From: a virus
DNA: 51,702 bases
IMG/VR virus record: IMGVR_UViG_3300029893_000236
Span: 1-51,702 of that record
Reading direction: 5' to 3' (one strand)
Below are positions 4,651-51,702 of this stretch, piece by piece (position 1 is the stretch's first letter; each line of letters begins with the position of its first letter). A program made the position numbers and the translations under genes. The notes beneath the pieces are model-generated. The model was not told where the DNA came from. It made no database searches and saw nothing but the letters and a program-made list of their open reading frames with translations.

Positions 4651-5527
4651 TAATTTTGAACATAAATTAACGCCTGAACAAAAAACAAGGATGAGGGAAC
4701 TTGTTCTTGAACAACGGTTAACCGACAAAGCTATTGCTAAAGAAATTGGTTGTAGTCATCAAACGGTGGCTCGGCTTAGAAAAAAGGAAGGTATTATTAA
4801 AGGTGTTCGAGGTACTATTATTACTAGTAAACCTAGTAATGAAAGAAAGAAAATACTTACAGAAATTGGTCCCGAAGAAGAAAAAATTGAAAAATTAAAA
4901 GAATATTTCAAAAATACTGATAGATATCATAAAATTTGTAAACATTATTTGCCTGAAGATGTAGAAACATTTATAAATCAATGGGTAAATTATCAACTTC
5001 ATACCGAAGATTTAACTTTAGCGGAGGAAGATAGTCTTGAATTATTAATTATGTATAAGATTCGTATTGATGCGAATCAAAAAACTATGAAGGAAATTGA
5101 GGAAAAAGAATTACAAATTAAACAACAATTAATTGGTAGAGAATTAGATTTAGAAGTAAATGAAAGCGATCGTTGGATTTGGGAAATGACCAATTCTCTT
5201 AATGCTACTAAGCAGGAGGTTAATAAAGAATTAAAGGATTTATATGATAGATATGAAAAAGTACAACGTTCATTAAATTTTACTCGTGAGCAAAGAGAAG
5301 CTAAGCGTAGAATTGGTGGTAACACATTTTTGGATTTAGTTAGGATGATGCAAGATAAAGAACGTCGTAAAGAAATTGGTGATTATAATGAACGAATGAA
5401 AATTGCCACACAACGACAAAAAGATAAACTTAAACGCCCACATATGTTTGCGGACGGTAATTATGACGCAATTTTGTTAGATGGATCAGATTTTATTCAG
5501 AAACAGGAAAATTCTAATAATGAGTAA
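4643..5527 (+). CDS. HTH and coiled-coil protein, candidate small terminase
   Basis: The N-terminal ~60 residues carry a clear helix-turn-helix (LTDKAIAKEIGCSHQTVARLRKKEGI). The remaining ~230 residues are charged, helical and predicted coiled coil, ending in an acidic tail. An N-terminal HTH followed by a coiled-coil oligomerisation region is the plan of small terminase subunits that select DNA for packaging, and the large subunit is encoded about 2.3 kb downstream. It could also be a transcription factor. It overlaps both neighbours by 8 bases. Confidence 0.5.
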   Translation: MPSNFEHKLTPEQKTRMRELVLEQRLTDKAIAKEIGCSHQTVARLRKKEGIIKGVRGTIITSKPSNERKKILTEIGPEEEKIEKLKEYFKNTDRYHKICKHYLPEDVETFINQWVNYQLHTEDLTLAEEDSLELLIMYKIRIDANQKTMKEIEEKELQIKQQLIGRELDLEVNESDRWIWEMTNSLNATKQEVNKELKDLYDRYEKVQRSLNFTREQREAKRRIGGNTFLDLVRMMQDKERRKEIGDYNERMKIATQRQKDKLKRPHMFADGNYDAILLDGSDFIQKQENSNNE

Positions 5528-6575
5528 TATTAAAAAGGTTCTTATTACTGGTTTTACCGGAATGGATGGCAGTGTTTTGGCTCAACAATTACTCCAAATG
5601 AATCCTGCCCCAAAAGTTTATGGATTGATTAGACGTTCTTCTAATCCTTCTTTAGATTTTATTGAAGAAATGGGTTTACAAGATGTGGAGTTAGTAGAGG
5701 GGGATTTGTGTGATAGTGGTAGTTTGCAGCATATCATTAAAAAACTGCGTCCCGATGAATTATACAATTTTGCTGCACAAAGTCATGTACATACATCTTT
5801 TGATCAACCAGAATATACTTTAGATATTACTGGTGGTGGTGTGGTTCGTCTTTTAGAACAAATACGATTAAATTCGCCAGACACAAAATTTTATCAGGCT
5901 GGTACTAGTGAATTATGGGGTGATGTACGGGGTAGAACGGTGCAAAATGAGTCTACTCCTTTTAATCCAATGTCACCGTATGCTGCGGCTAAGGCGTATA
6001 GTTTTCATATAACTAAATTATATCGTGAAGCATACGGTTTATTTACCTGTAATGGTATTCTCACAAATCACGAACATTATCGCAGATCTAAAACATTTGT
6101 TACTCGCAAGATTACTAATTGGGTAGCAAATTATATGTTGGATGATACTATTCCATCTTTAAAATTAGGTAATTTATATGCTAAGCGAGATTGGGGTTAT
6201 GCCGGTGATTTTTGTAAAGCGGCATATTTAATGTTACAACAAGATAAACCGGATGATTATGTAATTGGCACTGGTGTCGCTCGTAGTGTAAAAGATTTTT
6301 GTAATACCGCGTTTCATGTGGTTGATATTAATATTGAGTGGCATGGTAATGGAGTAGAAGAAAAGGCGTATGATACAGAAAGTGGTAAAGTAGTTATAGA
6401 AATTGATCCTAAATTTTATCGTCCCGCTGAAGTGAATTATTTATGTGCCGATTTTTCTAAAGCTAAACGAGTATTGGGGTGGTATCCTACTACAGAATTT
6501 GAGGTTTGGATTAAAGAAATGATAATGTTTGATGTTACTCGGAATTTAGAAACAATATCTGAGGATGAAATATAA
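5520..6575 (+). CDS. gmd: GDP-mannose 4,6-dehydratase
   Basis: This 351-aa extended short-chain dehydrogenase converts GDP-mannose to GDP-4-keto-6-deoxymannose, the first step towards GDP-fucose and related deoxysugars. It has the NADP-binding TGFTGMDGS loop (residues 10-18), the RRSS motif after strand beta2, a Thr/Ser-Glu pair in TSELWG, the catalytic YxxxK in SPYAAAKAYS (about 153-157), ILTNHE...FVTRKIT and AKRDWG, all diagnostic of Gmd. The ATG at 5520, with AGGA upstream, is preferred to the ATG at 5481, which would add 13 non-homologous residues. It lies far from the sugar cluster at 46-51 kb but probably works with the GT10 enzyme there. Confidence 0.93.
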   Translation: MSNIKKVLITGFTGMDGSVLAQQLLQMNPAPKVYGLIRRSSNPSLDFIEEMGLQDVELVEGDLCDSGSLQHIIKKLRPDELYNFAAQSHVHTSFDQPEYTLDITGGGVVRLLEQIRLNSPDTKFYQAGTSELWGDVRGRTVQNESTPFNPMSPYAAAKAYSFHITKLYREAYGLFTCNGILTNHEHYRRSKTFVTRKITNWVANYMLDDTIPSLKLGNLYAKRDWGYAGDFCKAAYLMLQQDKPDDYVIGTGVARSVKDFCNTAFHVVDINIEWHGNGVEEKAYDTESGKVVIEIDPKFYRPAEVNYLCADFSKAKRVLGWYPTTEFEVWIKEMIMFDVTRNLETISEDEI

Positions 6576-7344: not shown

Positions 7345-7792
7345 TACTAGGGAACAAAATCCTTTTAATTGGGAAAAATACGAAGGAATCAGAATTTATC
7401 AAGATACTTTAGAGGCTGCTGATTATACATTGGTTGGTCATGAATTTTATAATGAAGACGATTCTGTATTAGTTGAAAAAAAGAAGAATTGTTTGGAATT
7501 AGTAACCAACCTATGTAAAAAATGGGATCAATTTGAGAAAGAACTTGTGATTATGTCGCAATATAAACACAAGTGTATTGTAGTATGTGGGGAATATAAT
7601 TTTTGGGAAATTTATACTCAAAGAATGACTAAGGTACATCCTAATTTTGTTAATAAACGTTTGTCTGAGATATATTTAAATTATGGAGTGCCTACGTTAT
7701 TTTTGAAAAACCGTTCAACAGCAGAAGATTTTGTTTTCCGTATGTTTTGTCAAATATATAATAAACATTATTTAGAAAATACAGATGAATAA
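7286..7792 (+). CDS. ERCC4/XPF-type nuclease
   Basis: This 168-aa single-domain protein begins with the ERCC4 signature ILVDTREQNPF. An AADYTLVG strand carries the conserved Asp, and VLVEKKK stands for the ERK part of the family's ERKxxxD motif. The usual last Asp is not in register; the nearest acid is a Glu in LEL, so activity is not certain. Members cut branched or flap DNA in recombination and repair. The start overlaps the HNH gene by 59 bases, and no better ATG is available before the domain. Confidence 0.75.
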   Translation: MPDTKTSKNKNKTILPILVDTREQNPFNWEKYEGIRIYQDTLEAADYTLVGHEFYNEDDSVLVEKKKNCLELVTNLCKKWDQFEKELVIMSQYKHKCIVVCGEYNFWEIYTQRMTKVHPNFVNKRLSEIYLNYGVPTLFLKNRSTAEDFVFRMFCQIYNKHYLENTDE

Positions 7793-10700
7793 GAATATCA
7801 ATGTTTTAACAGAAATTAATAAAGCTTTTCGTGGTACTCCCGAGTACCAAACGATGCTTAGGCAGGCTTTAAAAAATACTGAAAATTTAGATGTTTTTTT
7901 AGATAGTTTGTGGATGGAGATTGGGGATGTTCGCAAATTAAAGTATGATAATAAATTATTATATCCTGAGTGGGACGATTATAATAAAATACCTGAAAAT
8001 ATAGTAAGATTATGTTTACGATCAGAATATTTACATTTTACTACAAAATATATTCTTAATTTAGACATATTACCATATCAAGCGGTTATTCTTGATACAT
8101 TCTGGCATAAACCTCTTCCATTGTTGGTGGGTAGTCGTGGTATGGCTAAATCATTTTTGTTGGCTGTATATTGTATATTGAGAGCATTATTAAGTCAAGG
8201 ATGCAATATTGCTATTGTTGGTGCTTCATTTCGACAATCAAAAGTAATTTATAATTATATCCAACAAATATATAACAACGCCCCTGTTTTACAAGATATT
8301 GTTCGTAACGAACCAAAAATTGGTTTAGATATGGCATCATGGTCGGTGGGGAATAGTAAAATTATTGCTTTACCTTTAGGAACTGGTGAGAAGATTCGTG
8401 GTCAACGTGCTAACGTGGTGATTGCAGACGAGATAGCCTGTTGTAGTTATAATACTTTAGTAGAAACAGATAGAGGTTTATTACGATTAGGAGAATGTAT
8501 TGAGAATGGACGAAGTGATTTCAAGATATTAAATCGGAAAGGTCAGTGGGAAAAACCCATGAGATATCATAAGACAGCATTGACCGATGTTTATAGAATT
8601 ACAACTGTTAATGGATATTCTTTTAAATGTTCTAAAATACACCAAGTGTTAACTACCAATGGATGGAAATTAGCTAAAGATTTAACCACAGACGATTATT
8701 TGATATATGATAATAAGTATATATTTCCTACAGACTATGTAATATACGAAAATATAGTTGTAGATGAAAAATTGGGATATTTAATTGGATTACTTATTTC
8801 TGAGGGCACTCTAACTAATAAAAATATGATATGTATTACTACTACAGATGAACGTTTAAAAAATTTTTTAATGGACGAATACAAAGATTTCAATATTAAA
8901 TGTTATATATCGACACCGAAATATGATAAGAGATTTGGAACTACGTGCAAAACTAAATATGATTTACGTATTCACTCTACTCGTTTACGTAATTGTTTAG
9001 AAAAATTAGGACTAAATAAAGTTACTTCTCATTATAAAACCACTCCTTGGTGTATATTAGAATCTCCTAAAAGTGTATTATTAGCTTATCTTAAAGGACT
9101 GTTTGAGGGAGATGGGTCTGCATTTAAAGTCAAGTGTCGTAATAAAATTAAATTTGCTGTATCTTACTATTCTGTTTCTGAACAGTTAGTAGATGAATTA
9201 CAAATTATACTTTTTAAATTAGATTTATTAAGTAATAAGGGGTCAAGGTATAGTAAATTAAGTGATAAAAAACAATGGATGTTGTGTTTACATGGAGAAA
9301 ATGCTGCTAAATTATATCATTTATTGAAAATAAGTAAATGGGATGAGGCATATCATAATTCTTATATATTTGAACGTAAAAAACGTATTGGTGTTACATA
9401 TTATAATGGTTTATATTATGCTAGGCCATATTATGAGGGTAAAGATAGATATTTGGGTAAATTTAATACTGAACATGAGGCTTTTGCTAAAGTAGATGAG
9501 TTTTGGTCTTCACACCAAAAGGGAATTAAGGTTAGTTCTGTATGTCTGTTGCCTATAAAAGAATGTTTATATGATTTTGAATTACCAGAATCCCAAAGTT
9601 GGTATGGCAATTGTTTCGTTCAACATAATTCCGTGAGTAAAGTAATTTTTGAAACAGTAGTGCGTGGGTTCGCTGCTGTTAAATCTCAGGGTGTTCATGG
9701 TAATGTTGTTGAAGAATACAAAAAAGACGTAGAAAAATTATATAATGAAATGTATAACGATGGGCCACGCACTCCTGATCTTGTGACTGAACTAGGTATT
9801 GATAATATTATGAAAAGTAACCAGATTATATTATCTGGTACTGCTTCCTATGAATTTAATCATTTTTATGAATATTGGTTAATGTATTCGGCTATAATAA
9901 AACATGGAGGGAATGTTAAATCTATTTATGAAGAATATGGTGACAAATTAAAATTTGATCGTCATGACAATATTGATGCCAATAATTATGCTGTAATTAG
10001 AATGCCATATGATGTTTTACCTCCTGGTTTAATGGACCCTGTTATTTTAACTCAAGGTAAAGCAACTATGGATAAACAAATATTCTTAATGGAATACGGA
10101 GCGGTATATTGTAAAGATTCAGAAGGATATTATTTAGCAAGTTGGTTAGAAAGAGCAACTTGTCCAATTAAAGATGATTCTAATGAATTAGTGATTAATT
10201 TTGGTCCAGCTTTGGTTGGTAATCCAGAAAAGGAATATATTGTAGGTATTGATCCGGGTTCAGAAGATGACAATTTTGCGGTGGCAGTGATTGAAAAAAA
10301 TACCAACTATAAAGCATTGCGTTATATGTGGACTACTAATCGTAAAGAATTTGAAAATTTGAGAAAGGATGAAAACCAACCCATTTCTTCTGATATTAAA
10401 GACTATCATACATTTTGTATTAAAATTCTTAGAGGAATCTTGCGAAGATTTAATTGTAAAATGTTTGTGTTAGATTCGGGGGGTGGAGGAGTATCTATTA
10501 GGGAGGGTTTGCGTGATCCAGATAAATTATTAGATGAAAACGATGATTTAATTTATGATATGGATGACGATGATGTAAAAGGGTTAAAAGGATTGCATAT
10601 TTTAAAGGTGGTAGAATTTTCAGATTATAAATGGCGTAGAGAAGCACATACAGGCTTAAGAAAAGATTTGTTAGAAATGAAAATTTTGTTTCCGAATTAC

Positions 10701-11156
10701 GATTTGGCTGAAGTTGCTTTATCCTCTTATAGAGATAGTAAAATGGGTAAGATTTATGATACTATTGAGGATGTACATTTAGAAATTTTACAATGTAAAC
10801 AAGAAACTGCTTTAATTAAGCGTACAGAAACCTCAACAGGACAAGAAAAGTGGGATGTACCTAAAATAGTTGGTTTGAATTCAGAAGAAGTTAAAAAACA
10901 ATTAAAAAAGGATCGGTTTACTGCTTTGATGCTTGCTAATTGGGGTTGGCGTTTTGTTGATCAAAATGATTATCCTGTATCAGTTGATTTTGTTGGGGGA
11001 GTAGCCCAAAATTATGGTAAAGATAAACAAAACTTATCTGGCCCAATGTATGTTGGAAAGGGTGCTGCTCGTATGAAAAACATTGGTCATGTGGGTGGTT
11101 TGGTGGGGGGTAGAGATTCACAACAATCGAACGGACACAGAAGAATTTTCTATTAA
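7785..11156 (+). CDS. Large terminase subunit interrupted by an intein
   Basis: The 1123-aa precursor comprises a 726-aa terminase and a 397-aa intein (residues 219-615). The ATPase half has Walker A GSRGMAKS (116-123) and Walker B VVIADE (211-216), which power DNA translocation at the portal. The nuclease half has the RNase H-like acidic strands VGIDPGSEDD (about residue 820) and MFVLDSGGGG, and a closing KKDRFTALMLANW helix. The intein sits just after the Walker B acid pair, so splicing is needed for function. The ATG overlaps the ERCC4 gene by 8 bases. The portal gene follows 43 bases downstream. Confidence 0.95.
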   Translation: MNKNINVLTEINKAFRGTPEYQTMLRQALKNTENLDVFLDSLWMEIGDVRKLKYDNKLLYPEWDDYNKIPENIVRLCLRSEYLHFTTKYILNLDILPYQAVILDTFWHKPLPLLVGSRGMAKSFLLAVYCILRALLSQGCNIAIVGASFRQSKVIYNYIQQIYNNAPVLQDIVRNEPKIGLDMASWSVGNSKIIALPLGTGEKIRGQRANVVIADEIACCSYNTLVETDRGLLRLGECIENGRSDFKILNRKGQWEKPMRYHKTALTDVYRITTVNGYSFKCSKIHQVLTTNGWKLAKDLTTDDYLIYDNKYIFPTDYVIYENIVVDEKLGYLIGLLISEGTLTNKNMICITTTDERLKNFLMDEYKDFNIKCYISTPKYDKRFGTTCKTKYDLRIHSTRLRNCLEKLGLNKVTSHYKTTPWCILESPKSVLLAYLKGLFEGDGSAFKVKCRNKIKFAVSYYSVSEQLVDELQIILFKLDLLSNKGSRYSKLSDKKQWMLCLHGENAAKLYHLLKISKWDEAYHNSYIFERKKRIGVTYYNGLYYARPYYEGKDRYLGKFNTEHEAFAKVDEFWSSHQKGIKVSSVCLLPIKECLYDFELPESQSWYGNCFVQHNSVSKVIFETVVRGFAAVKSQGVHGNVVEEYKKDVEKLYNEMYNDGPRTPDLVTELGIDNIMKSNQIILSGTASYEFNHFYEYWLMYSAIIKHGGNVKSIYEEYGDKLKFDRHDNIDANNYAVIRMPYDVLPPGLMDPVILTQGKATMDKQIFLMEYGAVYCKDSEGYYLASWLERATCPIKDDSNELVINFGPALVGNPEKEYIVGIDPGSEDDNFAVAVIEKNTNYKALRYMWTTNRKEFENLRKDENQPISSDIKDYHTFCIKILRGILRRFNCKMFVLDSGGGGVSIREGLRDPDKLLDENDDLIYDMDDDDVKGLKGLHILKVVEFSDYKWRREAHTGLRKDLLEMKILFPNYDLAEVALSSYRDSKMGKIYDTIEDVHLEILQCKQETALIKRTETSTGQEKWDVPKIVGLNSEEVKKQLKKDRFTALMLANWGWRFVDQNDYPVSVDFVGGVAQNYGKDKQNLSGPMYVGKGAARMKNIGHVGGLVGGRDSQQSNGHRRIFY
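8439..9629 (+). mobile_element. Intein with LAGLIDADG homing endonuclease
   Basis: The intein begins at Cys after DEIA (CCSYNTLVETDRGL, the Hint block A pattern) and ends in FVQHN, followed by Ser as +1 residue. His-Asn plus Ser is the canonical C-terminal splice junction. Two LAGLIDADG motifs are present, LGYLIGLLISEG (near residue 329) and LLAYLKGLFEGDG (near residue 435), so this is a full-length intein with a monomeric dodecapeptide homing endonuclease. Both key acids (E in SEG, D in GDG) are kept, so it is probably active. Insertion at the terminase Walker B site is a known type of intein target. Confidence 0.92.
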
Positions 11157-15562: not shown

Positions 15563-16588
15563 ATGGCTCGGCGAAAATCTAGATTCAATAAGTTAACGCG
15601 AGAACAAGCTAATGTTATTGTGGCTCAATTCCAAAAGGTTTTTTCTAATGACCCGGTTGAGTCAGCTCAAGCGGCACGAGAAATTATAACTGCTGTTGAG
15701 TTACCTATTCGCAAAACCTTGCTTGAAGGGCCTATTCTAGATGGTATTTATGAACCAATGGATTTTACTACAAATCCTAATGTCCGTTTCCCTCTAGATT
15801 TACTAACGCCGGGTGATGAAGATGAATTTTATGCCTATGTTCATCCCGGCGAAGGCTATATTCCTATGAAACGAGTAGAAGCCGATTACTTAATGGTTCC
15901 TACTTATCAAATTGCTAATAGCATTGATTGTTCTCGTCGGTTTATTCGTGATGCAAATTGGCCTGTTATTCAGCGTATGCTTGAAGTATTAGAAGCGGGT
16001 TTTTTTGCTAAAATGAATGATGATGGTTGGCAAACAATAATTTCTGCTGGTGTTGATCGTAACGTAATTGTTAATGATCCTAATGCTGCGGCCGGTCAAT
16101 TTACACCACGTCTAATTACGCTATTACAAACATTTATGCGTAGACAAGGCGGGGGTAATTCTGGTACAGTAGATCGAGCCAAACTGACTGATCTTTATGT
16201 ATCACCCGAAGCAATGATGGATATTCGGGCTTGGACATTAGATTTGGTACCCGACATTGTTCGTGCCCAAATTTACAATAGTGCCGAAACTGATGAAACT
16301 ACGATTTTTGGTGTAAGAATAAAAGCTCTAGATGAATTGGGTGAAGCTCAAGAGTATCAAAATTATTTTGCTAATACTCTTGGTGGTTCAATGGCAGCTT
16401 CGGATGTTGAAATTGTTGTTGGTCTAGATCGACAACGAAACGATTCTTTTATTCATCCTGTTCGTGAAGAACTGATGCTTTTTGAAGATAATCTTTTACA
16501 CCGTCGAGGCTTGTTTGGGTTTTATGGTCATACTGAAATTGGGTTTGCAGTATTAGATTCTCGTCGAGTATTGCTAGGTTCCCTATAA
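15563..16588 (+). CDS. Major capsid protein, HK97 fold
   Basis: This 341-aa protein is in the right place (after portal, protease, scaffold and decoration) and has HK97-type landmarks: a charged N-arm, a central helix (RFIRDANWPVIQRMLEVLEAGFF) and an A-domain stretch LYVSPEAMMDIR. The C-terminal ELMLFEDNLLHRRGLFGFYGHTEIG strand pattern is seen in phage capsid proteins. It forms the icosahedral shell. AAGGGG lies before the ATG, and a strong hairpin follows 35 bases after the stop. Confidence 0.88.
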   Translation: MARRKSRFNKLTREQANVIVAQFQKVFSNDPVESAQAAREIITAVELPIRKTLLEGPILDGIYEPMDFTTNPNVRFPLDLLTPGDEDEFYAYVHPGEGYIPMKRVEADYLMVPTYQIANSIDCSRRFIRDANWPVIQRMLEVLEAGFFAKMNDDGWQTIISAGVDRNVIVNDPNAAAGQFTPRLITLLQTFMRRQGGGNSGTVDRAKLTDLYVSPEAMMDIRAWTLDLVPDIVRAQIYNSAETDETTIFGVRIKALDELGEAQEYQNYFANTLGGSMAASDVEIVVGLDRQRNDSFIHPVREELMLFEDNLLHRRGLFGFYGHTEIGFAVLDSRRVLLGSL

Positions 16589-44366: not shown

Positions 44367-44825
44367 ATGAGATGCGGTGGATGCGGGAATAACAGAATAC
44401 AACCAAACCACAATACAAATTCTGTGTCGGCACCACAGAGTTTAACATTGGTTGATGAACATTTATTAAATAATAAGGTGGCTGATCAAAATGTTTTTAA
44501 AAATTTACGACAGGCAGCATTACAACAACCTGATAAATTGTTATGGTTTAAAGATGGTATTAGTAAAATTATTAAATGTTTAAAAGGAAAAACTCTATAT
44601 TTTGATGAAGATATTCAAAAAAATAGAGATGTATGTCGAGAATGTCAATATTCTACCAAAGACAGTAACGGAAAATTAACATTAAAATCACAATGTATGG
44701 CTCCCGATCCAGAAAAAAACAACGCTCCTTGCGGTTGTTTTATTGTTTGTAAAACACAAACAGGTTTTTGTCCTCAAAAAAAATGGACCACCACTGTTTT
44801 GACTGTAAAACGAGATGGTGAATAA
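44367..44825 (+). CDS. Small cysteine-rich protein
   Basis: This 152-aa protein begins MRCGGCGNN and has a C-terminal block with CRECQ, QC, PCGC, VC and FC spacing, ten cysteines in all, suggesting zinc binding or disulphides. The middle is helical (LRQAALQQPDKLLWFKDGISKIIKCLKG). AAAGGAC lies upstream of the ATG. Directly after the 1553-aa cysteine-rich gene it may be a partner or assembly factor of that protein. Function is unknown. Confidence 0.55.
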   Translation: MRCGGCGNNRIQPNHNTNSVSAPQSLTLVDEHLLNNKVADQNVFKNLRQAALQQPDKLLWFKDGISKIIKCLKGKTLYFDEDIQKNRDVCRECQYSTKDSNGKLTLKSQCMAPDPEKNNAPCGCFIVCKTQTGFCPQKKWTTTVLTVKRDGE

Positions 44826-44833
44826 TTAGTTAT

Positions 44834-45418
44834 ATGAATATTACTATTACTTGGGAACTTCTTATTCAGGGTATACTAGGTCTTGGGGCTATCCTAGGAG
44901 CGAGTTATAGTATTTGGAAATTTGGTGCTAAACCTTTAGTACGAGGTATCCATCGTACCGTAAAAATATATACCGATATTGAAAAGATATTAACAGAATT
45001 ATCACCCAATGGTGGTAAAAGTATGAAAGACGCTATCCATCGTATTGAAAAGATTTTGGTTACATATAATTATAAAACAACCACTCTTTTAGAATATCTT
45101 AATATAGGTTTTTGGGAATGCGACAATTATGGTAATTGTATTTTTGTCAATCGAGCATTGAGAAAAATTACAGGATATGATTTAAATCAATTTTTAAATA
45201 AAAATTGGATGGGAATAATATCAGAAGAAGATAGAGAAAGGGTGAGTGAAGAATGGGAAGATTGTATTCAACAACAGAGATCTACTTCATTAAGTTGTTC
45301 AATAGTAGATTGTAATGGTAAAGTTATTCCGGTCTATATAGAATCTATCGTATTACGTACTGAATCGCATGAAGTATTGGGTTATATTGGTACCGTAATA
45401 CCAATTAATAAAATATAA
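44834..45418 (+). CDS. Membrane-anchored PAS domain protein
   Basis: This 194-aa protein has one N-terminal transmembrane helix (about residues 7-28, LLIQGILGLGAILGASYSIW), a helical linker (KSMKDAIHRIEKILVTYNY) and a PAS domain (about 85-190). The PAS part has the expected order: GFWECDNYGNCIFVNRALRKITGY, the FLNKNWMGIISEEDRE helix, then paired strands RSTSLSCSIVDCNGKVIPVYIES and a final VLGYIGTVIPI. No kinase or cyclase output domain follows. A PAS sensor at the end of a late phage operon is unexpected; a role in sensing or lysis control is only a guess. Confidence 0.75.
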   Translation: MNITITWELLIQGILGLGAILGASYSIWKFGAKPLVRGIHRTVKIYTDIEKILTELSPNGGKSMKDAIHRIEKILVTYNYKTTTLLEYLNIGFWECDNYGNCIFVNRALRKITGYDLNQFLNKNWMGIISEEDRERVSEEWEDCIQQQRSTSLSCSIVDCNGKVIPVYIESIVLRTESHEVLGYIGTVIPINKI

Positions 45419-45976: not shown

Positions 45977-46717
45977 TTATTCAAGATTAAATTTTTGCTT
46001 GAAAAATTCTAAGTCTTTGGGGGTACCAAGGCCGTACATTTCATTTACAAACCAAGGTAATACTAAATCCCCTGCTCCACCCCGAATCAGTTCATTATAT
46101 GATGGGGCTAAATAAAACAGTCCGTTAGTCTTTATGTCTTTACGTATCATTTCTTTTATTGACCAAAGCATGTCTTTGGCTTTAGACCAATAATATATAC
46201 CTACCGTTGCATAACCACTAATAACCTCCTTTTCTTTTACTTGTACTATTTGGCCAAGATGATTCAGTTTAACAAAACTCCACTTAGGATCATCAGCGGC
46301 AAAACAAAAAATACCACCTACCGCTTTTTCTCTAGTAAAAAAGTTTATAGCTTCTGATAGCCAGTAAGAACCTTTAATATATTGGTCCGAATTATAAATA
46401 ATAATAGGCTCGTTTTCGTTTAAATAATTCGAGGCCAATAATATACTAAAAGAGGGGCCAGAAAGGTCGTATTGGGTAGAATATACTAATTCTTTAAAGT
46501 GTTGTTTATATCGTGTAAGAATAGGTTCTAATCTAGGTATATGTTCTTTTTTGCAGAGAATGATTAGTTTATCAAAGGATTTTAATTCGTTACATATATT
46601 ATCTAATACTAATTCTATTACACATTTGTTACCTACCTTAATAAGGGGTTTAGGGTCTTTATAACCAACCTCTGCAAATCGTTTACCTTCGCCAGCCATT
46701 AAAATCATTACTTGCAT
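45977..46717 (-). CDS. Sugar-1-phosphate nucleotidyltransferase
   Basis: This 246-aa protein has the nucleotidyltransferase fold. The N-terminal signature MILMAGEGKRFAEVGYKDPKPLI binds the NTP (G-x-G-x-R-F and KPL motifs), and a later IIYNSDQYI carries the metal-binding Asp. It would activate a sugar-1-phosphate with an NTP to a nucleotide sugar. Its neighbours are a HAD phosphatase and methyl/glycosyltransferases, so it supplies donors for the glycan cluster. It follows the HAD gene by 8 bases. Confidence 0.82.
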   Translation of the reverse strand: MQVMILMAGEGKRFAEVGYKDPKPLIKVGNKCVIELVLDNICNELKSFDKLIILCKKEHIPRLEPILTRYKQHFKELVYSTQYDLSGPSFSILLASNYLNENEPIIIYNSDQYIKGSYWLSEAINFFTREKAVGGIFCFAADDPKWSFVKLNHLGQIVQVKEKEVISGYATVGIYYWSKAKDMLWSIKEMIRKDIKTNGLFYLAPSYNELIRGGAGDLVLPWFVNEMYGLGTPKDLEFFKQKFNLE

Positions 46718-46725
46718 AATTTATA

Positions 46726-47364
46726 TTACTCAATAATGTATTTTGATAGGGTATCCTGAATCAGTTTTATAGTTAAATCTTTAGGACCATTAATTTTTAA
46801 TATATGTGCCCCACTGGATTTAGCAGACATAAGTCCTACCTCTGAATCCTCTACGATAAGAGTTTGGTTGCAGTTCACATTTAATTTTTGCATCGCTAAT
46901 AAATATGGGGCGGGGTGTGGCTTAGGAAAATCTACATCCTGATTAGTGATAACGACATTCATGTAAGAATAAAACCCGGCCTGTCTTAACATGAGTTCAG
47001 TAGTATCTCTTATACTGTTTGTTACGCATCCTAATTTGTATTTTCTATTTTTCAAATAACCTAAAATATTTACTTTATCGTTATCAAATGTAATACGATT
47101 TTTGATTTCACTAATAGTATAGGTTTGTTTTAATTGGTAAATAGCATCAATTTGTTTTTCATTAATTTTATTTTCTTTTACTATTTTTTTTAATTTTTCT
47201 TTGGTAGGCAACCCGTTAAATCGAGCGTAATGTTCTTCAAGAGGAATAATGTAATTGGCGGCTTGTTTTAAAGCACGATTTAGTGCGTGATAGTGTACAT
47301 CACACATATCTACCAAACAACCATCTAAATCAATCAAAACCGCCTGAATTTGATTATTCGACAT
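46726..47364 (-). CDS. HAD-family phosphatase / phosphoglucomutase-like
   Basis: This 212-aa protein, started at the ATG at 47364 (MSNNQ), has all HAD motifs: AVLIDLDGCLVD with the nucleophilic Asp and acid Asp, LGCVTNS (motif II), DFPKPHPAP (motif III Lys) and IVEDSEVGLMSAKSSG (motif IV). A helical cap follows motif I, as in the beta-phosphoglucomutase subfamily. It probably dephosphorylates or isomerises a sugar phosphate for the adjacent nucleotidyltransferase. A longer frame from 47430 would overlap the methyltransferase and is less likely. Confidence 0.82.
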   Translation of the reverse strand: MSNNQIQAVLIDLDGCLVDMCDVHYHALNRALKQAANYIIPLEEHYARFNGLPTKEKLKKIVKENKINEKQIDAIYQLKQTYTISEIKNRITFDNDKVNILGYLKNRKYKLGCVTNSIRDTTELMLRQAGFYSYMNVVITNQDVDFPKPHPAPYLLAMQKLNVNCNQTLIVEDSEVGLMSAKSSGAHILKINGPKDLTIKLIQDTLSKYIIE

Positions 47365-47369
47365 ATTAT

Positions 47370-48074
47370 TTATTGTTGATATGTACCTATTTGAATAACG
47401 GATAAATTGTATGGGTCTTTTTCTATACAATTGGTCCAGGGTTTATTAAATATTTTTAATATAAAATCTTTAGCCAAATTTTTAAAACAATGGGTATCAT
47501 GTAAAAAAATCGAACATTTTTCCGAATTTATAAATGGCAATATACCTAGTAAATCTAGAATTAAAGATTCGTCGGTGTGGTGGGCGTCTATAAAAACAAA
47601 GTCTAATTCATTACGATTAACATATTTAAATATGTTGATGGGACTTTTATCTTGTATAAAAAATACATTTGATAAATTATAATATTGTTGTAATGTTAAT
47701 AGAAATGGATAAGTTTTGCTTTGATTATTAATTTTATGATTAAAATCATATGCGTTACAGGCATTGCGTTTTTCTTCTATGTACGAATCAATAGTAGTAT
47801 AAAAACCACCGTAATTTTGCATAGCCTGGCCAATTATTAACGCACTGACCCCCGTTCCAGTTCCTATTTCTAGACCACATTTTGGTTGATATTGTTGTAT
47901 AAAATTTTGAAAAAATAATACTTCGGCACGATTAATAGATATTGGACAATCAAACGTATTAATTTTAATGCTGTCAAAATCTTTAGTTGTTTTGTTATGT
48001 GGGATATAATGTAAACTACGATTTATTTGTTGAGAATCGTTTATTAATTGATCTAATGTGAGTAGTGATGACAT
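47370..48074 (-). CDS. Class I SAM-dependent methyltransferase
   Basis: This 234-aa protein has the SAM-binding motif I LEIGTGTGVSALIIGQAM, an acidic end of strand beta2 (TIDSY) and FVFIDAHHTDESLILDLLGILPF with SIFLHDTHC, the pattern of the Methyltransf_24 type. That type often methylates sugars or small metabolites in glycan clusters. It lies within the leftward sugar operon. The substrate is unknown. Confidence 0.8.
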   Translation of the reverse strand: MSSLLTLDQLINDSQQINRSLHYIPHNKTTKDFDSIKINTFDCPISINRAEVLFFQNFIQQYQPKCGLEIGTGTGVSALIIGQAMQNYGGFYTTIDSYIEEKRNACNAYDFNHKINNQSKTYPFLLTLQQYYNLSNVFFIQDKSPINIFKYVNRNELDFVFIDAHHTDESLILDLLGILPFINSEKCSIFLHDTHCFKNLAKDFILKIFNKPWTNCIEKDPYNLSVIQIGTYQQ

Positions 48075-48090
48075 ATTTTATATATACACG

Positions 48091-48726
48091 TTAACGTAGC
48101 AACTTTCGTTGTAATTCTTTAATACTTTCTCTGTCCCCAAAAACAAAATGACATCCATTTCCATTGCCTACACCCATACTTGTTAATTGTTGATAATTCA
48201 TATTTTTAAATTTTACAAACGACACTACTTTAATGTTACCATTATTATGGCGAATAATTACGTCGTTTGGGTGTAGTGTAATTCTTGTATTATTATGGTC
48301 ATAGATAACAATGTCGTCTAATTGAGAATCGTATCCTGTACTTAATTGACCCTCTTCTCTTATAGAGGGTAGGAATTGTTTTAACTTCCAACGTCTAGAC
48401 GGAAGATAAAAGAAAACTTCTACTATTTCTTGTGTGCTAGGTATTATGTACCATTCTCTAATATTGTCGTTGGAATTTTGTAAATAAGTAGATACCAAAT
48501 GATATGCCTTTCTTATATTTTGCCAAATCGCTTCGGAAACAATGTTGTAACGTTGATTAGGATAAATAATTAATTTATTCCCTATTTTCCATTCACCTAT
48601 TATACGAATTAAATATTGAGTTATTTGTTTAAGATATTCAAGATTATCATAAGTCACATTATATACATCGATATGATATCCATCATGATGTTTGTGACAA
48701 TAGGTTTCTTTTATTATTCTATACAT
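48091..48726 (-). CDS. Hypothetical 211-aa protein of the sugar cluster
   Basis: A good TAGGA ribosome binding site precedes the ATG. The protein is mixed alpha/beta and basic/aromatic, with a His-rich start (CHKHHDGYH) and a beta block near the C-terminus (DIVIYDHNNTRITLHPNDVIIRH). No family is recognised. It lies in line with the cluster, 16 bases before the methyltransferase. A stem-loop GCCATCA/TGATGGC lies just upstream at 48746-48761. Confidence 0.55.
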   Translation of the reverse strand: MYRIIKETYCHKHHDGYHIDVYNVTYDNLEYLKQITQYLIRIIGEWKIGNKLIIYPNQRYNIVSEAIWQNIRKAYHLVSTYLQNSNDNIREWYIIPSTQEIVEVFFYLPSRRWKLKQFLPSIREEGQLSTGYDSQLDDIVIYDHNNTRITLHPNDVIIRHNNGNIKVVSFVKFKNMNYQQLTSMGVGNGNGCHFVFGDRESIKELQRKLLR

Positions 48727-48778
48727 TTAAGTAATTCCTATCACCGCCATCAAATGATGGCAAAAATCGCGTTCCTTT

Positions 48779-49462
48779 TTATTTCGTTTTGATGTACTCA
48801 TTATGTTTAATAATTCCTGGCGAAGCTGGATAACAATGTTTTTGCTTTAAAAATTGTACCAAGGATAATCTGTTTAGTTTATAATACCAGCAATCACGCA
48901 AACGCAGGCTCCATTCTACATCTTCGCCTTGACCCCATACTCTATTTTCGTCTAGAGGGTTCTCTCTAAAATAATCTGTTTTTACTACAAAATACGATCC
49001 ACTAATGTACATATTATGGATTTGGTCATCTACATCATAATCTAAAAACCTGATTTTTCCGTTATGATAGTCGCCGTCCCATATCATCCAATCACGAAAT
49101 CTAGTACCATCTAAATTTAAAATTGGGTTCATTGCTACTTGCCAGCAATTTTCAAAATTACAATAACCCCGATACCAGCCGGGCAATAATTTAATATAAT
49201 CATGCATTAATACTAAATTGGGATATTTTGCTAATCTAGCCTGTTCATTTTTATGTTTGGTAATCCACATTTGTCGGCCTAAATCTTCTATTTTTAAAGT
49301 AGTAGTATTGATACGTGGGATAGAAATATCTATAGGGGCCGTAATAATAATTTCATAATTATGTATTGGACATTCTTGTTCAATGGAATCTATAATTTTA
49401 TGTATACGTTCGTTTTGTGTGCCGTCAGTACAAATACCGAAAGTAAAATGGGTTGAAGTCAT
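48779..49462 (-). CDS. GT-A-like glycosyltransferase
   Basis: This 227-aa protein looks like a compact GT-A enzyme (family 2 type). An N-terminal Rossmann-like half (FTFGICTDG...YEIIITAP) is followed by LVLMHDYIKLLPGWY, where HDY replaces the usual DxD. GQGEDVEWSLRLRD matches the acceptor-binding ED-x-E-W/xxR block that holds the catalytic acid. It would transfer a sugar from a nucleotide donor. It is smaller than many family 2 enzymes (~250-300 aa). Confidence 0.7.
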   Translation of the reverse strand: MTSTHFTFGICTDGTQNERIHKIIDSIEQECPIHNYEIIITAPIDISIPRINTTTLKIEDLGRQMWITKHKNEQARLAKYPNLVLMHDYIKLLPGWYRGYCNFENCWQVAMNPILNLDGTRFRDWMIWDGDYHNGKIRFLDYDVDDQIHNMYISGSYFVVKTDYFRENPLDENRVWGQGEDVEWSLRLRDCWYYKLNRLSLVQFLKQKHCYPASPGIIKHNEYIKTK

Positions 49463-49467
49463 ATATG

Positions 49468-49692
49468 TTAAAACCTTTTATTAGTACAATTATTATTTAA
49501 TTCTGTATCGCAACAATATTGTATTTCTTTTTGGTTGTAATTGTGATATAGTATACCATATAAAATACCTAAAGCATACCATAATCTACCATTGGCTTGT
49601 GGATAATCTGTAGGTTTTTTGTTATAATACATACTAGGGGAGGGGAATATTAATGATTCAAGGTTTTTAGGTGTGTGTGTTGTTTTTTCCAT
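49468..49692 (-). CDS. Hypothetical 74-aa protein
   Basis: The frame starts 26 bases inside the end of the sugar O-methyltransferase gene and stops 5 bases before the glycosyltransferase gene, so it fills the gap in the operon. It has a Tyr-rich middle (WYALGILYGILYHNYN) and Cys-Cys near the end. No family is recognised. It could be a small accessory protein. Confidence 0.45.
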   Translation of the reverse strand: MEKTTHTPKNLESLIFPSPSMYYNKKPTDYPQANGRLWYALGILYGILYHNYNQKEIQYCCDTELNNNCTNKRF

Positions 49693-50572
49693 TGTTTTGC
49701 GAAAATCCTATCAGATAATAATTATTGGGAATATATTCTGTTTCTTCAATTTCCACATTATAACCACATTCGGTTGCCAAAAATCCTAATTGTTCGGCGT
49801 GTGGCATGTCGGAGGATTTGTTTTGAAACGACAAGAATAGGTTATTAGCCCCGAACCAATTAGCGTTTGTCACCAAATCTAGTGTTTTTTGGTTGGCTTC
49901 ACTTAATGACCATAATGACATAAATAAATCGCAATTCCATTTAGTGTCACTTACACGATTGATCGGTAATATTTCAATACCTATATTACCACCAAATAAA
50001 CATTTGTCATCAAAAAAGATTTCGTTGCTACCTTGAATGGTACATTTTAAATAAAGCCATTGTAACGCACAAAAGATAGGCAGATCAATTATTGTGTATT
50101 TATCGCACCAACCACCATTGTATAATTTACGAGCCATATTGCCATAACCGCCACCTAATTCTATAAAATGATAATACATCTTATATTGTAAACTAGGGTT
50201 GGTATAATTTAAATAATACCACCAATGGTAAGTGTGATGTAAATCATTGTGGGAAAATCCATATTCAGGATTCTTGATAGGCATACCTACATTTGGTTCT
50301 TTTTCAAATTTAATTTCATTTTTAGTTTTAATTTTTTCTAATTGAACATCAGCCCATTTACCCCATGCATTAACAAACATAGTGTGTTGTATTTCTGGTA
50401 AAGAAAGAAAGTTAAAAGGGGGGTTGGGGTATATTAGTTGGAATATACGATCACATTGTTGTTCCCAAAACGGGGTGGTATATTGCCGCCATGAAGAATC
50501 GTTAATATGGTATTGTTCAACCAATTGTCTATATTGTGGAATTAGAGATTGCCATTTTTGTTTAGTGTTCAT
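49667..50572 (-). CDS. Putative sugar O-methyltransferase
   Basis: This 301-aa protein, started at the ATG at 50572 (MNTKQ) whose ATGA overlaps the stop of the GT10 gene, matches the sugar O-methyltransferase type found in glycan clusters. It has an N-terminal helical region with FVNAWGKWADV, then FIELGGGYGNMARKLY as SAM motif I and YTIIDLPIFCALQWLYLK. It probably methylates a glycan hydroxyl. The longer frame to 50605 would run into the GT10 gene and lacks support. Confidence 0.72.
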   Translation of the reverse strand: MNTKQKWQSLIPQYRQLVEQYHINDSSWRQYTTPFWEQQCDRIFQLIYPNPPFNFLSLPEIQHTMFVNAWGKWADVQLEKIKTKNEIKFEKEPNVGMPIKNPEYGFSHNDLHHTYHWWYYLNYTNPSLQYKMYYHFIELGGGYGNMARKLYNGGWCDKYTIIDLPIFCALQWLYLKCTIQGSNEIFFDDKCLFGGNIGIEILPINRVSDTKWNCDLFMSLWSLSEANQKTLDLVTNANWFGANNLFLSFQNKSSDMPHAEQLGFLATECGYNVEIEETEYIPNNYYLIGFSQNNGKNNTHT

Positions 50573-51405
50573 AATAAAAGTTGTCCATACTGTTGTATAA
50601 ACCAATCTTCAGCTGTTCTATATTGTTCAACTCTTTGAATATTATCTTCAATGGCGGGTAACATAGATTGATACAAATCCTCATTCAAGGAGGAGAGTAT
50701 GTTTTCTAATTCTTCTAGGGTTTCAAATTGAATAATCCCGTCCGAGTTAAAATATTTGTTTATGTTCGGTGTGCCCCACCAGATGGGGACTGTACCTGCC
50801 GCAAAACAATCTAAAATAATATCAGTAAAATAATCGTCCAGTCTCATATTCATAATGGCCAAAGAAAAACGGTAGTTGCGGTGGCCATCCAACTTGTATT
50901 GAATTGGTTGATATCCTCTACCAAATAATCCATCAATATAATTACCAAATTTTCTAACCACTTCATGACGTAATTTATGTCCGGGGGCATAATTTTTATC
51001 CGATGCTATAATAGATAAATTCGATGTTTTGGGGTAAATCTTAACATCTTGTGGTTTAGTCCAAACAGCCCCCATAGGGTAATATAAAATTTTATTTTGT
51101 AATTCTATAGACTGATTCTTTTTCCACTCAAGATTGTGTGTTAATATATAATCAAATAAATCAGGATTACGCTCAACAAAAGAATAACTATTATTAATAA
51201 TACATGGGGGTTCTAATAACCACGCTATTTTCTTTTTACAAAAATAATTTTGTGCGTGTGGCAACATTAAATCCGTAAAAAAACAGGTGTCACTTGGTTT
51301 AATAGGAGTTCGGTCCCATTCTACCCATTTAGGTATATTATCACTAGAAGATACAGAGTGTGCAAATGCAATGTCGCAAATTTTTAATTTATATTTTTTA
51401 TACAT
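50569..51405 (-). CDS. GT10-family fucosyltransferase-like protein
   Basis: This 278-aa protein has the diagnostic GT10 block near residues 180-220: YRFSLAIMNMRLDDYFTDII, then DCFAAGTVPIWWGTPNINKYF. In family members these bind GDP-fucose. The N-terminal half is a Rossmann-like acceptor domain (IAWLLEPP, DYILTHNLEW). The donor would be GDP-fucose or a related GDP-deoxysugar, for which the phage encodes the first enzyme (Gmd, 5520). It ends in TGA overlapping the next ATG. Confidence 0.82.
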   Translation of the reverse strand: MYKKYKLKICDIAFAHSVSSSDNIPKWVEWDRTPIKPSDTCFFTDLMLPHAQNYFCKKKIAWLLEPPCIINNSYSFVERNPDLFDYILTHNLEWKKNQSIELQNKILYYPMGAVWTKPQDVKIYPKTSNLSIIASDKNYAPGHKLRHEVVRKFGNYIDGLFGRGYQPIQYKLDGHRNYRFSLAIMNMRLDDYFTDIILDCFAAGTVPIWWGTPNINKYFNSDGIIQFETLEELENILSSLNEDLYQSMLPAIEDNIQRVEQYRTAEDWFIQQYGQLLL

Positions 51406-51702
51406 TAGTTTGTTGATAAACCTGTTTTAGTCCTTCTAATAGAGGAATTTGTGGTTGCCACAATTTATTATCCATTAACCACATATTGGGTTCGTTTTGT
51501 AGTGTTTGTGTAATATCTTTTTGTATACCTCGATCAATAATACTATCTACAGATAAGGCATTATTATTTGAATGTATATAACACAAAAGTCTTGCAATAG
51601 CATATATTGATATCCATACACCAGAGGTTAAATCAAATATGTCGGGAAAATTTGGTTGACAACTATTTTCAGCAATTGTTATTAATCCTCTAACACAATC
51701 TT
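51398..51702 (-). CDS. NAD-dependent sugar epimerase/dehydratase, C-terminal part only
   Basis: The frame continues past the TTG at 51586 to the right edge of the window, so only the last ~100 residues are present. They show the C-terminal pattern of extended short-chain dehydrogenases: DCVRGLITIAE, FDLTSGVWISIYAIA, then LWQPQIPLLEGLKQVYQQ, where family members have LGW-P---LEEGL. It could be an epimerase, or a GDP-fucose synthase-type enzyme that completes the Gmd pathway; the active site is outside the window. It overlaps the GT10 ATG by 8 bases. Confidence 0.65.
   Translation of the reverse strand, partial: DCVRGLITIAENSCQPNFPDIFDLTSGVWISIYAIARLLCYIHSNNNALSVDSIIDRGIQKDITQTLQNEPNMWLMDNKLWQPQIPLLEGLKQVYQQTNV

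Follow-up and report, generated by a model that had tools for sequence, protein, structure and literature searches.

A phage PAS protein with a HolA-type membrane anchor is a candidate lysis accessory

What does a phage gain from a PAS domain that hangs from a membrane anchor and is encoded after its tail genes? The question is raised by the last gene of a + strand operon in a virus record of which we analyzed the whole stretch of 51,702 nucleotides, referred to here as the window. The gene (44834-45418, + strand; ATG start, TAA stop) encodes a protein of 194 amino acids, P0001, which we describe as a TM-PNGG-PAS protein. A first-pass annotation, made from the letters alone, had seen here one transmembrane (TM) helix, a helical linker and a PAS domain without output module, located at the end of the tail operon. 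Both the architecture and the position were borne out. The open reading frame covers exactly these positions, the sequence and the AlphaFold2 model fit an N-terminal TM helix that continues through a helical linker into a PAS domain at the C-terminus, and at E 0.1 Pfam finds no families other than PAS. The genes from 45475 onward lie on the - strand, and thus the P0001 gene closes the + strand operon after the tail genes. Its upstream neighbor (44367-44825, +) ends 8 nt before the PAS gene and encodes a Cys-rich protein with no family at E 0.001. A terminator-like hairpin of 15 pairs was detected only on the - strand (45451-45418), where the convergent - strand operon ends, and none on the + strand; the hairpin search, which relies on a consensus match only, returned 2 sites in the region vs 1.0 expected.

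The same annotation had noticed no holin or endolysin elsewhere in the window, and our searches agree with it. No lysis family was found in the 45 window proteins among the best 25 of 27 Pfam families and the best 25 of 43 PHROG families, nor in 38 of these proteins in a second PHROG scan that took all 10 families into account, and Amidase_2 was not found across the whole 51.7 kb record. The record looks incomplete. Since a gene runs off its right end, and no replication family is among the matches listed for the window proteins in Pfam and PHROGs, the missing lysis gene counts as a weak absence.

Several other features of the window were recorded. The terminase large subunit gene (7785-11156, +) is apparently interrupted by an intein at about residues 219-615. 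The terminase of the viral contig L020 aligns to both flanks of this putative intein, and the LAGLIDADG_3 and intein splicing matches obtained with the window proteins were placed in this gene by inference. A - strand cluster (45977-51702) contains a nucleotidyltransferase gene and, by eye, HAD hydrolase, methyltransferase and fucosyltransferase-like genes; together with a GDP-mannose dehydratase-like gene (5481-6575, +) it possibly forms a glycan pathway. Positions 1-800 of the window have a GC content of 0.49-0.53 vs 0.34 for the whole window and may represent a foreign or misassembled end.

The linker of P0001 (residues 47-74; 44972-45055, +), with the family motif SPNGGKSMKDAIHRIE, matches phrog_9869 at E 6.5e-6. 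Its motif PNGGxSxxDAxxRIE, which the first-pass annotation had not noticed, marks this phage anchor family, a PHROG without assigned function. An hhalign comparison of 11 PAS-type N-termini with 8 phage proteins (7 from actinophages and one from a Dulem virus) gave a probability of 98.7 over 36 columns, a match that leaves the TM helix uncovered. Judged by sequence, the membership of P0001 in the anchor family is well supported. A tblastn search with the linker led to small phage proteins with one TM helix; phrog_9869 was confirmed in all five of the records then searched, and these five were therefore retained, while a match in Providencia PSTCR6 was set aside.

Annotated relatives of the anchor are in part found next to lysis genes. 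In Thermobifida phage P1312 the anchor gene lies directly 5' of an amidase gene, mu1/6 gp52 lies directly 3' of the endolysin and holin genes, and Sonali gp22 has lysin A directly downstream; no endolysin annotation stands beside the anchor gene in Glutamicibacter BIM BV-113, Dulem virus 32 or LiSara. The P1312 anchor protein (147 aa, L002:3725-4168) is labelled 'sensory protein kinase CreC', a name that seems to be wrong. With the short relative L065 as query, 21 records matched at E 0.001, including HolA of Actinomyces phage Av-1 and Arthrobacter proteins. Anchor proteins are named holin in five Arthrobacter RefSeq records, LiSara and Mufasa8 being among the holin-named, and the Mufasa8 anchor gene is directly followed by a metallo-endopeptidase gene. 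In Av-1 the gene order is holA-holB-lysA, and the record notes that HolA has a single transmembrane region and 'appears to enhance holin activity of HolB'. HolA is called holin-like in a passage of a review (PMC11064738); it retains the PN-G-S-D part of the motif but not the RIE end. The holin family phrog_15431 matches L065 (9.5e-10) and L070 (5.6e-4), and no match to it was found in P0001 at E 0.1.

To describe how widely the combination of anchor and PAS domain occurs, viral contigs were scanned with the pattern PNxGxS[LMI][RK]DA. The scan returned at least 599 stretches and at least 91 relatives, of which 80 were retained. In 31 of these loci (L016-L045, L086) the protein runs on for 128-169 aa from the motif into a region that can be aligned to the PAS domain of P0001 (PAS-type members); the other 49 are short members. 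Because the motif was itself the search key, its invariance is not evidence. A collection of bacteria and archaea, scanned with a slightly different pattern, gave 29 motif stretches and 7 confirmed relatives, two of which (L096, L097) extend into a PAS domain. With at least 599 viral against 29 bacterial or archaeal stretches, the motif is strongly enriched in phages, and its combination with PAS is mainly a phage feature. By eye, the neighbors of L096, on a contig in a SAR202 MAG, resemble those of the viral L029/L044 group, and this contig is possibly a binned phage. P0001 itself found no relatives by peptide scan or by tblastn in phages at E 0.01. The same was true of the relative L017 by tblastn in phages at E 0.001, and the adjacent 1553-aa protein, used as query in a scan, likewise gave no relative. 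In plasmids, tblastn detected no close PAS; its best match, to a single PAS sensor protein, had an E value of 0.07.

The position of the PAS-type gene varies between these viruses. The 167 kb contig L020 belongs to a virus related to that of the window, with equivalents of the terminase, the portal and the protein encoded at 15563-16588 at 27-41% identity, and there the PAS gene is flanked by the terminase and portal genes. By eye, the gene is near the terminase in L017 and L031, near helicase-like genes in L041 and L045, and beside tail or fiber genes in several loci. These positions indicate that the PAS-type gene moves and that its linkage to lysis genes is partial.

The TM helix of P0001 was placed at about residues 3-28 (44840-44917, +) by hydropathy and the charge rule. 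The peak hydropathy of 1.73 was equalled in 1496 of 5000 shuffles of the same hydrophobic protein, so that hydropathy on its own is not significant; a hydrophobic stretch is found at the same N-terminal placement in P0001 and its relatives. No Lys or Arg precedes the helix, and K29, K33 and R37 follow it. By the positive-inside rule, we therefore predict an N-out/C-in topology. The C-in charge bias was seen in 16/16 PAS-type and 25/25 short members, counting those with a clear TM helix. When the first ATG is used, the helix is missing in 8 of 24 PAS-type members, and an upstream open frame provides a TM-like stretch in seven; in L034 the helix is borderline even with the open frame upstream. 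P0001 is thus predicted from its sequence to have a single N-terminal TM helix and its C-terminus inside, as in the HolA-type anchor.

The PAS domain occupies residues 85-191 (45086-45406, +), as judged from Pfam, AlphaFold2 and structure comparison. Pfam PAS_3 scored 47.1 bits (cut-off 25.6; E 2.9e-12), and PAS, PAS_9, PAS_4 and PAS_8 were also above their own cut-offs. AlphaFold2, run with a 26-sequence alignment, gave a model with a mean pLDDT of 87 and a pTM of 0.66, in which helices at residues 7-55 and 60-87 precede the PAS strands and helices at 92-190; across this fold pLDDT was 90-98 in blocks of ten. Foldseek with this model found 3lyx at E 9.7e-9. The PAS part superimposed on 6ywi with a Z score of 16.6 and an rmsd of 1.7 over 103 residues, and the top-ranked folds were LOV domains (Z 16.6). 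By curated Pfam score and predicted fold, P0001 belongs to the PAS domain superfamily. Profile matches to the PAS domains of phytochrome, ARNT and WalK were dismissed as generic, and a histidine kinase or GGDEF sensor was rejected, as Pfam found no output domain in P0001.

The first-pass annotation had proposed that the protein could sense redox, ligand or membrane state and had asked for the residues of the ligand pocket. The PAS fold was confirmed, and none of these signals is supported, the LOV and Aer flavin residues looked for being absent. The photoactive Cys of LOV domains sits in an NCRFLQ motif. By eye, P0001 has NWMGII here, with W125 at the Cys position; W125 is kept in 25 of 26 aligned sequences, as is G100. 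W125 aligns with the flavin-stacking H53 of Aer. According to the part of the Aer report that lists them, the FAD contacts are H53, R57, W70, N85 and R115 (PMC9668731). In a profile alignment read by eye, the consensus of the family carries W, I, K, I and L at these positions, so that none of the five is kept. The conserved W141 was considered as a counterpart of Aer W70 and rejected, since it aligns with the neighboring M69. As both the LOV cysteine and the Aer FAD contacts are absent, neither light sensing nor redox sensing of the Aer kind is supported. What is rejected are the LOV and Aer-type FAD signatures and not ligands in general: P0001 may hold FAD by other residues, bind another ligand or act through PAS-PAS dimerization.

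To assess the linkage to lysis genes, we analyzed 50 whole records, comprising 24 of the 31 PAS-type loci after near-duplicates were dropped and 26 of the 49 short members. Eight lysis families were searched, namely VanY, CHAP, two spanins, Amidase_2, Phage_lysozyme, M15_3 and GH108. The PAS-type records gave 9 lysis-domain matches, 5 within 1 kb of the PAS gene and 4 at a distance of 12.7-30.5 kb. Matches within 1 kb thus occur in 5 of 24 non-redundant records where random placement expects 0.55, and the resulting P of about 1e-4 is optimistic and partly circular because the choice of VanY, CHAP and the two spanins followed a look at the neighbors. Among families not picked in this way, Amidase_2 was near in 0/3 and Phage_lysozyme in 1/1. 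M15_3 and GH108 had no match in PAS records, GH108 being silent in the controls too, and PF05838, without match even in the controls, was uninformative. No match of the eight families lies within 1 kb in 19 of the 24 PAS records, and 15 have none anywhere in the record.

The individual loci show what this linkage looks like. According to PHROGs, a holin (1.7e-39) and an endolysin (1.3e-28) gene lie directly upstream of the PAS gene in L019, an Rz-like spanin gene (3.5e-10) lies directly upstream and overlaps it in L025, and another Rz-like spanin (2e-15) is encoded two genes upstream in L022. In L038 the second gene downstream encodes a peptidoglycan hydrolase (tail lysozyme 3e-26, endolysin 1.4e-6), with a CHAP match slightly below the cut-off (25.4 of 26 bits). 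In L040 (7830-9157) the stop codon of the PAS gene and the ATG of a Phage_lysozyme gene share bases (ATGA), an overlap that makes L040 the best natural test case; in our reading the N-terminus of this lysozyme looks like a SAR domain. As the ORF picker overlooked the L040 lysozyme, by-eye neighbor lists in high-GC loci are unreliable. Further lysis candidates were not counted: a downstream 2-TM protein and an M15-like protein in L016, and small proteins in L049, had no PHROG or Pfam match; in L029/L044 a small TM protein had no PHROG match and a papain-like protein had neither; and small proteins in L065 had no PHROG match.

For the short members, the whole-record test gave 2 of 6 matches within 1 kb against 0.88 expected (P 0.20, not significant), a test that misses weak CHAP/NlpC neighbors. 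By coordinates, an upstream CHAP/NlpC-like or VanY gene overlaps the anchor gene in L046, L059, L068, L077, L081, L082 and L085; family matches were run for L046, L059 and L081, and the other four were assigned by eye. The neighbors that could be named include VanY in L046, a PHROG endolysin in L095, SLT_3 on the opposite strand in L070, NlpC/P60 barely above the cut-off in L051 and L081, and CHAP below it in L059. The L087 neighbor matched no Pfam family and one unnamed PHROG, and a phrog_1275 match in L087 (E 5.8e-4) was dropped because of an internal stop. Neighbor tallies over 124 proteins covered the best 25 of 48 Pfam and the best 25 of 202 PHROG families.

The phage family of the anchor thus has short members that sit in lysis cassettes, and several PAS-bearing relatives lie near lysis genes. 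This supports the idea of lysis timing put forward in the first-pass annotation, on grounds independent of the gene position from which that annotation had argued; the variable gene position, the unlinked majority of PAS records and the window without a detected lysis gene speak against it. We propose that P0001 is a lysis accessory with N-out/C-in topology whose cytoplasmic PAS domain modulates the timing of lysis, and regard this reading as an even call. A lysis role of P0001 is moderately supported; gating of lysis by the PAS domain we only infer. The TM helix and stalk would form an anchor of the HolA-type helper kind, from which the PAS domain would hang in the cytoplasm. P0001 would be made alongside the tail genes, accumulate in the inner membrane and associate with the holin or a membrane-tethered (SAR) endolysin of the phage. 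It may speed or delay triggering according to whether the PAS domain has a ligand or partner bound and whether it is dimerized. By analogy with releasin, LysF1b and HolA, the PAS domain may then be seen as a regulatory load.

The same observations have to be weighed against explanations in which P0001 does not time lysis. An anchored PAS dimerization domain might hit membrane proteins of the host or of an incoming phage, in membrane takeover or superinfection exclusion without any part in lysis. The gene positions near terminase, portal and helicase-like genes and the 19 records without a nearby lysis match would suit such a role, but it leaves the recurrent linkage of the anchor family to lysis genes unexplained, and we consider it unlikely. 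P0001 might also be an ordinary holin or holin helper with an inert PAS fold, used for oligomerization and not for sensing. Some short PAS-less relatives are already named holins, and neither Aer-type flavin nor LOV signatures were seen; against an inert domain, 31 loci retain the PAS-like part and W125 and G100 are nearly invariant, although a purely structural role is still compatible with this. We judge an inert PAS fold to be distinctly unlikely.

The first-pass annotation had also suggested a decoy that interferes with a host kinase, in which P0001 would use its PAS domain to pair with that of a host sensor kinase or cyclase and so blunt the host protein. A PAS domain without output module, whose profile matches many sensor proteins, is what a decoy would look like, but these matches are generic, the best plasmid hit was at E 0.07, and the anchor is enriched in phages, with the difference in search patterns noted above. 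No positive evidence for a decoy emerged, and we find it highly improbable. Equally little probability is given to a protein associated with the tail or baseplate that would arrive at the membrane during injection or assembly. The gene follows tail genes, by eye tail or fiber genes are neighbors in several loci, and 5 of the 9 short members scanned weakly match phrog_404 'minor tail protein' (E 3.4e-5 to 0.004). In all five, phrog_9869 outscores phrog_404, and a single TM helix with C-in charge bias would better fit an inner-membrane protein.

In the usual description a holin is a clock, and its own sequence and level set the time. If P0001 is a lysis helper with a built-in cytoplasmic sensor, it becomes testable whether phages read host physiology to time their release. 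True sensing, in which HolA-type anchor-PAS proteins of widespread uncultured phages couple lysis timing to a host metabolite, redox state or partner, is possible but doubtful. A lysis role would give a function to phrog_9869 and to phage proteins named merely 'PAS domain'.

How does P0001 compare with known systems? None of the titles and abstracts listed on phage PAS with holin or lysis describes a membrane-anchored phage PAS, and a PAS review names phage in its reference list only (PMC10468136). Two BFVD/UniProt entries named 'PAS domain [uncultured Caudovirales phage]', A0A6J5NY05 and A0A6J5QVN9, resemble P0001 in length with 205 and 195 residues. Foldseek aligned P0001 with them at E 9.6e-14 (191 columns, 24% identity, overall rmsd 34.6) and E 8.6e-12 (195 columns, 27% identity, overall rmsd 13.4), and the large overall rmsd indicates that the placement of helix and PAS domain differs between P0001 and both models. 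VqmA of vibriophage VP882 is a phage PAS protein through which a small molecule controls lysis (PMC8284805). Unlike P0001, it is an HTH transcription factor acting on the lysis-lysogeny decision, and the passages on it mention no membrane anchor (PMC8284805); in our reading the PAS domain of P0001 would act on lysis at the membrane, whereas this known PAS control is transcriptional. Class III (T4 T) holins have, as summarized in a section of one paper, a single TM helix with N-in/C-out topology and a periplasmic domain (PMC13056207). Identity with this class was rejected, the predicted topology of P0001 being the opposite.

Closer in topology are two lysis proteins. The Mu releasin gp25 (DUF2730), as described in part of one report, has a single N-terminal TM helix, N-out/C-in topology and a gene near the endolysin, and it frees SAR endolysins (PMC9239132). 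It shares with P0001 the helix, the predicted topology and a cytoplasmic C-terminal domain, and differs in having no PAS domain; DUF2730 was absent from P0001 (E 0.1) and from 9 anchor relatives (E 1). LysF1b of mycobacteriophages Girr and NormanBulbieJr acts on triggering, its deletion leads to lysis defects, and the passages that describe it give, like P0001, a single TM helix, N-out/C-in topology and a charged cytoplasmic helix and, unlike P0001, report no PAS domain (PMC13056207). No sequence relation to LysF1b was seen, with 0 Mycobacterium phages in the 21 records matched by L065 (E 0.001). The likeness of P0001 to releasin and LysF1b is one of topology and not homology. HolA of Av-1 and the phrog_9869 anchors of actinophages differ from P0001 in their actinobacterial hosts and in having no PAS domain; like P0001, they have one N-terminal TM helix and a cytoplasmic stalk that ends in the PN-G-S-D motif.
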